64,000 bases of DNA from positions 1-64,000 of the forward strand of contig CAJFRT010000004.1 in assembly GCA_904419525.1 (NCBI GenBank). Direction: 5' to 3'. The position numbers were made by a program, and so were the translations under genes. The notes under the pieces were generated by a model. It was not told the DNA's origin and made no database searches. It saw nothing but the letters and a program-made list of their open reading frames with translations. Shown here in pieces: positions 25,310 to 41,578 of the stretch (its first letter is position 1; each line of letters opens with the position of its first letter). The DNA comes from Candidatus Gallimonas merdae (lineage in GTDB: Bacteria; Bacillota; Clostridia; Christensenellales; Borkfalkiaceae).

Positions 25310-25603
25310 ATGACGATTTACAAAAGGTTCTGCACCTGCGGTTGTTGCCCCTGTGCGTGCGATTGGCAGTGCAACGAGGTGGCCGTATACAGCGATGATG
25401 CTTCCGTAGGTCCGACCGGCCCGACGGGACCCACAGGGTTCACAGGTCCCACAGGTGCAACCGGCCCGACAGGTGCAACGGGTGTAACCGGTCCCACGGG
25501 TCCCACAGGGTCTACAGGTCCCACAGGTCCGACCGGCCCGACGGGTGCAACGGGAACTGCGGGCGTAACAGGTCCGACTGGTCCGACAGAGCAGGTAACA
25601 TAA
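25310..25603 (+). pseudogene. Collagen-like protein, 5' part interrupted by a mobile element
   Basis: The frame starts with a Cys-rich 30-residue head ([13 protein letters not shown]) and then runs through 20 G-x-T/A triplets (GPT, GAT, GVT and so on). After residue 95 the host sequence ends; two codons and a TAA stop come from the left end of the inserted element. The missing C-terminal half lies at 41015-41578 and joins in frame, giving a protein of about 282 residues. Such proteins (BclA-like) coat spores or cells in Firmicutes. A GGAGG site precedes the ATG at 25310. As it stands the gene makes a 97-residue truncated product. Confidence 0.85.
25588..25603. other. Left attachment junction (attL)
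   Basis: Host collagen-like sequence ends in ACAGAGCAG, followed by the proposed crossover dinucleotide GT (25595-25596) and element sequence AACATAAGGG. The right junction has CCCATAA-GT-CACCGC. Choosing GT restores the codons for E-Q-V-T-A-P-T and an open frame. The shared CATAAG on both sides of the element is an alternative core, but it would leave a stop codon in the restored gene. Confidence 0.65.
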
Positions 25604-25830
25604 GGGAAACATGAAAAAGCCATTCGGAACAAAGTCAAACGGCAGCTCATACGGGCTGCCGTTCTTTTGTGTGCCCCGTTTTGCTCGTGCGATTTGCTCC
25701 TATTCCCTCTACTCCGAGATAAGGTGGAAAGCCACCTTTTTCGGAATAGGAATATTTAACCGTATCGAATCCGATACGGTTGGATACCGCACTATTTTCA
25801 AATAATATATCAGCAATTTCGCATATCCTA
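25604..25830. other. Non-coding left end of the element with hairpins
   Basis: Three structures lie here. A stem AACGGCAGC/GCTGCCGTT at 25638-25663 followed by CTTTT looks like a terminator and would stop reading from the collagen-like gene into the element. A long hairpin spans 25699-25750 (CCTATTCC with GGAATAGG outside, AAGGTGG with CCACCTT inside). A third stem, ACCGTATCG/CGATACGGT, lies at 25759-25780. These could serve recombinase binding or insulate the cargo. No gene is supported here. Confidence 0.6.
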
Positions 25831-25859
25831 TTGAAATCCCCGTGCGGATATGCTATAAT
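25831..25859 (+). promoter_or_regulatory. Promoter of the defence operon
   Basis: TTGAAA (25831-25836) and TATAAT (25854-25859) are 17 bases apart, 34 bases before the regulator ATG. Confidence 0.8.
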
Positions 25860-25892
25860 TATTTTGTAATACGATTTGGACGAGGTGACAGC

Positions 25893-26096
25893 ATGGCAAT
25901 CAGCTACAATAAGTTATGGAAACTACTCATCGACAAGGGAATGACAAAGACGCAAATGCGCCTTCAAGCAGATATTTCCACAACGACGCTTGCCAAACTC
26001 GGAAAAAATGAGACCGTTTCGATGGACGTCCTCTTAAAGATCTGCAAACTGCTCGACTGCAACGTCGGCGACATTATGGATATAGTTACTGATTAA
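25893..26096 (+). CDS. XRE-family helix-turn-helix regulator
   Basis: The 67-residue protein is a single Cro/C1-type domain of the short YozG-like class. It has the helix-turn-helix segment TKTQMRLQADISTTTLAKL and the ending LLKICKLLDCNVGDIMDIV. It probably binds DNA as a dimer. The ATG at 25893 follows a GAGGTGA site by 5 bases. It is the first gene of the cargo operon, 18 bases before the helicase, so it likely sets expression of the defence genes by autoregulation. Small regulators of this kind often lead restriction operons. Confidence 0.88.
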   Translation: MAISYNKLWKLLIDKGMTKTQMRLQADISTTTLAKLGKNETVSMDVLLKICKLLDCNVGDIMDIVTD

Positions 26097-26114
26097 GTAA
26101 AAGGGGATAAGGTT

Positions 26115-39270: not shown

Positions 39271-39297
39271 ACGTCAGAAAAAAGTTGCCGCGGGCCG

Positions 39298-39326
39298 TTG
39301 AAAAATTCGGCAAGCCGTGCTATAAT
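39298..39326 (+). promoter_or_regulatory. Promoter of the large serine recombinase
   Basis: TTGAAA (39298-39303) and TATAAT (39321-39326) are 17 bases apart, 45 bases before the recombinase ATG. Confidence 0.75.
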
Positions 39327-39370
39327 AGAGCCGACTTTGACCGAATGGCTTTGACAGAAAAGGAGGTTTC

Positions 39371-41014
39371 ATGTCAAAGCAAAAACAACTGAATCGAACG
39401 GCGCTTTACATGCGCCTTTCGCGCGATGACGAGAAGGCGGGCGAGAGTATGTCCATCGAAAATCAGCGCATAATGCTCAAAAAGTATGCCGAGGAAAATG
39501 GCGGCACCGTCGTGGACGAGTATATCGACGACGGCTGGTCGGGCACCGACTTCGAGCGCCCCGCCGTCAAACGGCTTTTGGACGATGCCAAAGAGGGCAA
39601 GATCGATACCATCGTTGTAAAAGATCTTTCGCGCTTCGGCAGAAATTACATTCAGGTGGGGCAGTATATCGACTATATCTTCCCAGCCTACGGCATCCGC
39701 TTTATCGCCCTTTCGGACAACGTGGACACGGCGGACAGAACGAGCGCGGGCATGGATATGATGCCAATCATGAACGTGTTCAACGAGTGGCACGCGGCGA
39801 ATACTTCCAAAAAGATCCGCGCCGTGTTGGAAGCCAACTGGAAGCAGGGCAAGTACACCAACTGGGCGTACCCCTACGGCTACAAGGCGGGAACGGACGA
39901 GAAGCGCACGGCAGTCATCGACGAGGAGGCGGCAGCCATCGTGCGGCGTATCTACGATATGCGCCTTGCGGGCAGTTCCTATCGGGCGATCGCCCGCGCG
40001 CTCACCGACGAGGGCATCCCTAACCCCACGGCGTACTACACGCGGCTGGACGGAAGGAAGTCGGTGCGGCGGAACTTAGGCTATTGGACGACGCGCACCG
40101 TCTCCGAAATTTTGAGCAACCCCACCTACACGGGCAGGATGACGCAGCATCTGACGACGCGCTTTTCCTACAAGAACCATAAGGTGCTCCATGTTCCCGA
40201 GAGCGAACACGTCGTCAAGGAGAACGCGCACGCGGCGATCGTCGACCGCGCAACTTGGGAAAAGGTGCAGGCGATGCGCGCATCCGTTTCGCGCGGGAGA
40301 GCGGACAAGGAGAACCGCGTACATCCGCTTTCGGGCTTGCTCTTTTGCGCCGACTGCGGCTGTAAGCTCAAATTCAAGTCGGGCGGGCAGCGCAGGGGCG
40401 TCTGCAACTACTATCTGTGCCGCCGCTACATCGACGTCGGCAAAAAGTACTGCACCTCCCACGCCATCAGCGACAGGCAGATAGAAGGCATCGTTTTGAG
40501 CGACATCCGCGCCATGCTGGGCGAGGTGGAGACGGACGAGGCGACGGCGAAAGAGCGCTTTTTGCGGGAACGCGCCATGCGCGGCGAGCGCAACAGATTG
40601 TCGGACGAGAAAGCGTTGCGGTCGCTTCAAGACAGGCTTGCGGAGCTTGATCAACTTATCCAATCTGCTTTTGAAGAAAAGGTGCTGGGGGCTTTGCCCG
40701 AGAATGTGTTGAGAAGCCTTTGCGAAAAGTATCAGGCGGAGAAGGAAGCCGCCGAACGTAAGATCGCGGAGATCGAAGCGCGGCTCGCCGAAGCGGACAG
40801 CATCGACGCGGAAGTCGAGGAGTACATAGCCCGCCTGAAACGGTACGCAAGGTGCGAGGAGCTGACGCGCGAAATGTGTTTGCAGCTCATCGAATTTATC
40901 ACCGTGGGCGAAAAGACGGAGGGCGACAAGCCGCGCGAGATCCATATCTACTACAAATTTATATCGAATGCGTCCGCGGACTTTTGCGGGCAGACGAACA
41001 AACAAATCCCATAA
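39371..41014 (+). CDS. Large serine recombinase (integrase/transposase)
   Basis: The 547-residue protein has the resolvase-type catalytic domain with nucleophile Ser17 in YMRLSRDD, the SRFGRNY motif near residue 84, the recombinase domain (residues 170-290), a zinc ribbon (CADCGCKL then CNYYLCRRY and KKYC) and a C-terminal coiled coil. It cuts and rejoins attP and attB through a 2-base core. An AGGAGGTTTC site precedes the ATG. Its TAA stop codon ends at the last base before the GT core of the right junction, so it is the rightmost gene and almost certainly moves this element. Confidence 0.95.
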   Translation: MSKQKQLNRTALYMRLSRDDEKAGESMSIENQRIMLKKYAEENGGTVVDEYIDDGWSGTDFERPAVKRLLDDAKEGKIDTIVVKDLSRFGRNYIQVGQYIDYIFPAYGIRFIALSDNVDTADRTSAGMDMMPIMNVFNEWHAANTSKKIRAVLEANWKQGKYTNWAYPYGYKAGTDEKRTAVIDEEAAAIVRRIYDMRLAGSSYRAIARALTDEGIPNPTAYYTRLDGRKSVRRNLGYWTTRTVSEILSNPTYTGRMTQHLTTRFSYKNHKVLHVPESEHVVKENAHAAIVDRATWEKVQAMRASVSRGRADKENRVHPLSGLLFCADCGCKLKFKSGGQRRGVCNYYLCRRYIDVGKKYCTSHAISDRQIEGIVLSDIRAMLGEVETDEATAKERFLRERAMRGERNRLSDEKALRSLQDRLAELDQLIQSAFEEKVLGALPENVLRSLCEKYQAEKEAAERKIAEIEARLAEADSIDAEVEEYIARLKRYARCEELTREMCLQLIEFITVGEKTEGDKPREIHIYYKFISNASADFCGQTNKQIP

Positions 41015-41024
41015 GTCACCGCAC
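41011..41024. other. Right attachment junction (attR)
   Basis: Element sequence CCCATAA meets host sequence CACCGCACCC around GT at 41015-41016. Joining the two element ends would give CCCATAA-GT-AACATAAGGG, an imperfect inverted repeat (CCCATA/TAAGGG), as expected for attP of a serine recombinase. Confidence 0.65.
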
Positions 41025-41578
41025 CCACGGGTGCAACGGGAACAGCGGGCGCAACGGGTGCAACCGGCCCGACGGGTGCAACGGGAACTGCAGGCGCAAC
41101 AGGTCCGACCGGCCCGACGGGTCCCACGGGTGCAACGGGCGCAACTGGCACGGCTCCGGCAACACAGCTTTTTTCCGCTTATTCGGCTCCTTCAGCTCCC
41201 GGAACTGCGGGAAATGCTCTTCTGTTCGACGTCAACGGGGTATCTTCCGGGACCGGTATCACGCATACTCCCGGAGACAGTGAATTTACACTGGAACAGC
41301 CCGGAATATATACGGCGGCCGTTCATGGAAATCTTGCTCCCGGTTCGGGGGTGAGTTTCCCGCTGAATGTCATTCTGGAACTGCAGCAGGATGGCGCGGT
41401 CGTTCCGGGCGGGATCGTGCAGCATACCTTTCACACTTCGCCCGACACAGCTACGGTCGCTTTCAGCGCTGCCGTACAGGTAACTTCTGCTCCGTCCGTT
41501 CTTCGTGTGGTCGGGGAGGGCGGAAACTTTATTTACAGTGCCCTCAATATGACGATCTATAAAGTCTCGTCCGATTGA
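41015..41578 (+). pseudogene. Collagen-like protein, 3' part cut off by the element
   Basis: Reading from the GT core gives V-T-A-P-T, 14 more G-x-T/A triplets and then a globular C-terminal domain of about 135 residues ([44 protein letters not shown]) of the type that ends BclA-like proteins with a TNF/C1q-like jelly roll. The piece has no start codon or promoter of its own and is silent unless the element leaves. It continues the frame of 25310-25594 exactly. Confidence 0.85.

Follow-up and report, generated by a model that had tools for sequence, protein, structure and literature searches.

A probable Tn4451/TnpX-type element splits a collagen-like gene of Candidatus Gallimonas merdae within its Gly-X-Thr codon repeat

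The window analysed here is a stretch of 64,000 nucleotides from Candidatus Gallimonas merdae (GCA_904419525.1, contig CAJFRT010000004.1, positions 1-64,000, forward strand). Between positions 25310 and 41578 on the plus strand it holds one collagen-like gene in two parts, separated by an insert of 15,441 bp that encodes a large serine recombinase. This raises the question of what kind of element the insert is and why it lies within collagen-coding repeats. We interpret it as an integrative mobilizable element of the Tn4451/TnpX type, whose recombinase belongs to a clade for which Gly-X-Thr codon repeats serve as the landing site, and assign this reading a probability of about 0.82.

A collagen-like gene in two parts

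An initial annotation of the locus described one gene split by a serine-recombinase element of ~15.4 kb, with a head and 20 triplets on the left and 14 triplets and a globular tail on the right. This description holds, and 25310-41578 is correct as the span of the whole split gene. When the two parts are joined at the AC dinucleotide discussed below, the frame encodes 275 amino acids with 34 consecutive collagen triplets. Its product is recognised by Pfam Collagen, and a weak match to BclA_C falls below the cut-off.

Comparison with relatives indicates that both halves belong to one gene, because genomes of the same genus carry head and tail uninterrupted. The three same-genus genomes in which both gene ends are assembled (G017, G011 and G004; genomes are denoted G and loci L) encode head and tail within one open frame, and the collagen array is present in the uninterrupted gene of G017 and G011. 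In G017 the intact version is found beside the same upstream neighbours as in the window, an alcohol dehydrogenase (88%) and a divergently oriented glycosyltransferase (70%). The window gene at 23274-24140, between these neighbours, and the downstream gene at 42245-43315 were unmatched in 19 kb of G017. In a further genome of the genus, G016, the contig (58,990 bases, as long as the L074 contig) starts within a recombinase and continues into a homologous collagen gene, which is also interrupted; the contigs of G013 and G027 start within the collagen array. The tail domain is present in 9 of 61 genomes, comprising the host's own and 60 relatives. In the G004 ortholog (L114) the head is joined directly to the tail and the collagen array is absent, showing that the gene can lose its array.

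A strict GxT-array pattern gave 14 matches in the host assembly and 14 in the window, all of the latter in the split gene. A protein search of the host's own genome with the collagen gene returned the two halves and one antisense match, and nothing else. Together, these results indicate that the element occupies the only such gene found in the assembly, which is 92.6% complete. No conserved promoter was recognised ahead of the collagen gene in an alignment of three sequences. The host encodes Spo0A and SpoIVA, and a spore-surface role of the collagen-like protein is therefore possible. A tRNA-Arg gene (CCT) is located just past the collagen gene, at 41797-41871 on the minus strand.

The crossover dinucleotide

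Both element ends carry inverted arms, with CCC or GGG positioned 16 nucleotides from an AC that opens a threonine codon. On the right, the 12 nucleotides following the GT at 41015-41016 are identical across four related loci in differing host genes (L021, L022, L069 and L072): the collagen tail of L021 is 36% identical to that of the window, and those of the other three give no match at an E-value of 1e-3. At L074, which occupies a homologous host gene (tail 56%), 3 of these 12 nucleotides differ. With the query extended past 41028, identity to the window over 41029-41038 is 10, 6, 8, 7 and 4 of 10 bases in L021, L022, L069, L072 and L074, respectively, and 6, 5, 5, 6 and 4 of 10 over 41039-41048. 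Beyond 41028, identity drops to the level of the repeat, immediately in four loci and ten bases later in L021. On the left, a second left end at L058 is identical to the window arm from the AC on, and the triplet preceding it differs. The loss of identity past 41028 and the L058 left end together place the crossover junction at AC (25586-25587 on the left, 41027-41028 on the right), with the element extending from 25588 to 41028.

The arms are paired within individual elements. Both ends were read in 16 elements, having been sought by the AC-N16 spacing or read by hand, and the left end has the form AC-N16-GGG. Left and right arms of one element agree at 10.6 of 16 positions, compared with 7.8 for a left arm set against the right arms of other elements, and 0 of 20,000 permutations gave so high a value. 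In the window, the two arms agree at 8 of 16. This within-element pairing suggests that the arms behave as halves of the element's attachment site (attP) around an AC core.

The initial annotation had placed the junction at a shared GT (25595-25596 and 41015-41016). A join at this GT does leave 282 open codons, as was stated, but it keeps residues from the element, which disrupt the collagen register, and we rejected it since identity continues past the GT into the element arm. The residues EQ(VT) and VTAP at the ends are, by the same comparison, encoded by element DNA. The recombinase stop codon is located at the right junction as described, although it lies inside the arm and does not abut the true core. 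We also rejected a GC core located where the palindrome of the arms is centred, as the join, worked by hand, is out of frame. A first scan for shared dinucleotides between arm positions, with AC itself excluded, gave at best 7/11, which we read as a by-product of the A/T-rich inverted arms.

Recurrence in collagen arrays

The relatives comprise 79 loci, obtained from the best 80 of 293 recombinase matches. The geometry was counted at 56 loci with a recombinase at least 52% identical, the window included; four are cut by contig ends, leaving 52 testable. At 39 of these 52, CCC-N16-AC followed by a collagen array occurs within ~160 nucleotides of the recombinase stop, with the array forward in 37 cases and reversed in 2. 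By script, the other 13 loci do not show it; two of these (L030 and L055) fit when read. None of the 23 testable outgroup recombinases shows the pattern of arm, AC and collagen.

The distribution of the recombinases in a tree of 68 proteins points in the same direction. All 31 collagen-labelled recombinases fall into a single 42-member clade with support of 100/100, together with 7 labelled as other and 4 as short; the 24-row outgroup contains 23 other and 1 short. The tree omits 12 of the 80 sequences, which had a reverse match, a stop within the match or fewer than 430 amino acids.

The rule also predicted left ends in newly fetched DNA. In a check of six loci made after the rule was set (L025, L027, L028, L029, L031 and L064), AC-N16-GGG after collagen was found at five; the stretches of L025, L027 and L031 were picked at an array already seen. 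For L033, the left-end search of the re-fetched stretch shows an end known before.

Recombinases 93-96% identical to that of the window occur in other species, and four of them were read in collagen genes with different tails (L021, L022, L069 and L072). A recombinase match at E ≤1e-180 is found in 11 of 396 genomes of the order, the host's own included. The L024 contig, which carries a recombinase with 96% identity to that of the window, is binned as Gastranaerophilales, a different phylum; this may reflect transfer or a binning error. In the two reversed loci (L037 and L068) the array runs in reverse to the right of the recombinase at the same spacing, and the core read on the collagen strand is GT, giving G-x-V. 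One junction was read of each, and they are consistent with the same phase. Fusion proteins of recombinase and collagen, considered for L025, L026 and L044, were rejected, as no locus has the core inside the recombinase frame.

Proposed mechanism

We propose that the element's own large serine recombinase integrated it at the 2-bp AC in the Thr codon of a Gly-X-Thr triplet. The recombinase clade would be specialised on the triplet-encoding repeat DNA (GGN-NCN-ACN-GGN) as the bacterial attachment site (attB). From what is known of serine integrases, attP would pair with GGN-NCN-AC-NGG in the coding repeat, and strands would be exchanged at AC, with half-arms left on each side. The split gene would yield a truncated collagen stub, because the left arm supplies an in-frame stop, and precise excision at AC would rebuild the full gene both in frame and in collagen register. 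If the clade targets repeat DNA, many triplets of many genes are potential sites, so that insertions could stack and cargo could vary. We infer that the recombinase sets the choice of target and that excision and transfer occur.

Several observations weigh against this interpretation. At 11 of the 52 testable loci the geometry was not found beside the recombinase (L032, L033, L046, L048, L049, L050, L063, L065, L067, L070 and L075); a collagen half is encountered farther along at L032, L033 and L067, and the other eight show none. The loci used to derive the AC rule are also among those counted by it, and the relatives were drawn from the best matches only. At L025 and L058 the script match sits later inside the array, and the junction was read by hand instead. 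Most loci come from metagenome-assembled sequence, in which contigs may break at repeats. A search of 20 kb did not reveal the left end of L029, and neither an excised circle nor an empty site of the same strain was seen. The activity of the window's relaxase and recombinase is a prediction.

Alternative explanations

The element may have landed once and been immobile since, with the collagen gene simply broken. The interrupted gene is the sole one with a strict GxT array found in the assembly and may be dispensable, and no sign of excision was seen. We nonetheless consider such an inert recent insertion unlikely: the recombinase frame is complete and contains the expected domains, and close relatives of the recombinase occur in other species, four of them in the other-tail genes noted above.

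The initial annotation drew an analogy with sigK-type skin elements. In a developmental switch of that type, excision in the mother cell at sporulation would rebuild a spore-surface gene, the interruption being tolerated because the mother cell is terminal. The sporulation genes of the host fit this idea, as do the collagen region and the sub-cut-off BclA_C match of the joined protein, and according to a passage of PMC5595907 serine recombinases also act in the established skin, spsM and gerE elements. Ten relatives were also joined at AC. Six of these close at a stop without a second insertion (L026, L034, L056, L057, L060 and L061), two enter a second insertion (L053 and L058), and two run off the contig (L051 and L052). 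The open 3' halves are, however, explained equally well by recent insertion. The presence of the element is patchy, with the gene intact in the same-genus genomes G017, G011 and G004, and it has no fixed position in one gene, since different collagen genes, including those with other tails, hold very similar recombinases across relatives. The element also carries mobilization genes. No sporulation-type promoter was recognised and no directionality factor identified in a search that was not exhaustive for either. The sigma-A-like promoter ahead of the recombinase does not decide the matter, because known switches include constitutive recombinases, as reported in part of PMC5595907 for SP-beta and the Clostridioides difficile skin element. 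Taken together, the analogy is not supported as the main explanation, and we judge a programmed switch improbable. We hold as speculative, and rather improbable too, a broader scheme in which collagen-like spore-surface genes are shared docking genes in spore-forming gut Clostridia: the recombinase clade would read Gly-X-Thr codons as landing sites, cassettes would stack there, some lacking a recombinase of their own as does the uraA-upp segment of L030, and removal of all of them in the mother cell would rebuild the gene.

A variation device, with the recombinase exchanging the heads and tails of collagen genes so that the surface protein changes, might account for the stacked insertions in one gene at L030, L053 and L058 and for the two reversed insertions. 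It is very unlikely in a host with a single strict GxT-array gene found, and no inverted or swapped gene versions were seen, although no systematic search for them was made. False joining of contigs at collagen repeats, which several relatives' contigs starting inside the array or recombinase might suggest, is almost certainly not the explanation, since arms pair within loci and numerous separate assemblies show the arm-AC geometry, one of them on a 1.1-Mb contig that shows only the right end of its element (L029).

Relation to known elements

The Tn4451/TnpX-type reading draws on likeness to Tn4451/Tn4453 and Tn6104, elements of Clostridia that combine a large serine recombinase with a mobilization gene and a 2-bp crossover. 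The window element encodes a DUF4368 recombinase, assigned by kind rather than by comparison with TnpX itself, and a relaxase of its own, and has a 2-bp crossover, AC, at both ends as read from sequence alone. The TnpX target site comprises 2 bp according to part of PMC3158075, and passages of PMC5704250 describe recombination of Tn4451 between 2-bp identities, low integration specificity, MobV relaxases and excision by the Tn4451 enzyme without a directionality factor. Low target specificity is not what we observe, with 39 of 52 loci in collagen arrays, and the element is therefore better described as a variant of this type than as a plain member. It differs further in its relaxase, which matches MobA/VirD2, so that the relaxase type may differ from the MobV of Tn4451. 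The recombinase clade sits mostly in collagen triplets, and its cargo is defence-like or metabolic.

Among other recombinases, an annotated plasmid TndX is 34% identical to that of the window. The best Ccr model is CcrB, at 145.5 bits against a cut-off of 900, which does not support a staphylococcal cassette chromosome (SCC). The DUF4368 domain is shared with the TndX-like multi-targeting recombinases of Durrant et al. 2022, for which part of PMC10083194 describes many target genes per recombinase cluster. In the present case, by contrast, a codon repeat within protein-coding DNA serves as the motif, and 'collagen' has 0 occurrences in the main text of PMC10083194. The skin, spsM/SP-beta and gin elements are likewise serine-recombinase elements that split a gene, and their excision rebuilds it; a passage of PMC5595907 describes gin as carrying restriction-modification genes and as not prophage-like. 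These elements interrupt sporulation genes and are removed as the cell sporulates, whereas the target genes here vary.

No report of collagen-repeat targeting was found in searches of an open-access library. The one paper there to combine serine recombinase, collagen-like and integration site, PMC9430571, has as its subject, judging from part of its text, Staphylococcus aureus phages with a collagen-like tail fibre. The mechanism class is thus known, from Tn4451-like elements and DUF4368 multi-targeting recombinases, and targeting of a collagen codon repeat appears to be new. Site-specific integrases usually target one conserved gene or short low-complexity motifs. Use of the DNA of a repetitive protein motif would provide many equivalent sites per gene and different genes across species, with scarless excision. 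It would account for the recurrent interruption of collagen-like genes in gut Clostridia. Searches for mobile cargo could then be directed at these genes, and recombinases that act on a defined repeat would become available.

Genes and composition of the element

The features of the split gene and the element are listed in Table 1. The guanine-plus-cytosine (G+C) fraction of the cargo at 26115-36273 is 0.36, compared with 0.56 to the left of the collagen gene and 0.575 in the recombinase gene. Sigma-A-like sites number 4 in the stretch, where 1.5 are expected. Of 68 upstream regions searched at a loose E limit of 10, outgroup loci included, 66 contain a small open reading frame (ORF) ahead of the recombinase. 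It has the pattern ..RHF.G.K.L....LA..RA.RE.GL and is a candidate accessory factor. The window copy (39103-39270) may resemble TnpW, and it has no Pfam or NCBIfam match.

Table 1 Features of the split collagen-like gene and the inserted element, with positions in the window.
Feature	Position	Strand	Basis or remark
5' half of collagen-like gene	25310..25587	+	ATG start, Cys-rich head, 20 G-x-T/A triplets, through AC core
Left crossover dinucleotide AC (putative attL core)	25586..25587	+	First two bases of Thr codon
P' arm, left element end	25588..25607	+	Collagen frame reads ..EQVT-stop
HTH regulator (HTH_26)	25842..26096	+	Domain match
PLD-domain SNF2/DEAD helicase, defence-like cargo	26115..29408	+	Domain/family match
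Eco57I-type / type IIG methyltransferase-like protein	29395..32691	+	Domain/family match
PDC-M46A-like protein, candidate defence	32728..33762	+	Family match
PDC-M46B-like protein, candidate defence	33775..35259	+	Family match
DUF1016/YhcG PDDEXK nuclease	35263..36273	+	Domain/family match
NikA-like mobilization protein	37163..37591	+	Domain match
MobA/VirD2-type relaxase	37509..38642	+	Domain match
Small ORF, 55 aa from ATG, conserved upstream of recombinase	39103..39270	+	Relatives' upstream regions
Sigma-A-like promoter TTGAAA-17-TATAAT	39298..39326	+	11/12 consensus matches
Large serine recombinase (Resolvase, Recombinase, Zn ribbon, DUF4368)	39371..41014	+	Stop codon inside P arm
P arm, right element end	41007..41026	+	Inverted-arm comparison across elements
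Right crossover dinucleotide AC (putative attR core)	41027..41028	+	Arm geometry and identity loss beyond
3' half of collagen-like gene	41027..41578	+	14 triplets and BclA-like C-terminal domain; stop 41576-41578

Size, cargo and stacking across relatives

Eleven elements measured core to core range from 3.6 kb (L051) to the 15.4 kb of the window, and array positions suggest more than 30 kb for L025 and L031. The backbone of NikA, relaxase and recombinase is common to the window, L021 and L022 (86-96% protein identity). Cargo in the relatives, named from ORFs by eye without a family search, includes a uracil permease and a uracil phosphoribosyltransferase at L058, L026 and L030, those of the latter two being 86-92% identical to those of L058. 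Other cargo includes an AAA-like protein (L051), a reverse transcriptase-like protein (L053) and large lipoprotein-like proteins (L034 and L057).

Insertions are stacked at several loci. At L030, the right end of one element is followed by two triplets and then by another left end, and the second segment, with uraA and upp, has no recombinase. This segment (L030 2244-4641), which holds uraA and upp between arm-AC ends in the same collagen gene, may be a non-autonomous cassette. At both L053 and L058, the collagen gene contains a second left end. At L033, around 11620-11660, a right and a left arm seem to adjoin with no collagen between them, resembling tandem-fused elements.

Other features of the window

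A second, distinct serine recombinase is located within 43887-52334, followed by an LlaJI-like restriction cluster of an Eco57I-type methylase, a C5 methylase, an AAA_5 protein and an LlaJI nuclease. The region at 54761-62989 resembles a phage replication block, with a DUF2800/PDDEXK nuclease, a family A DNA polymerase, a D5-type primase/helicase and an SNF2 helicase.

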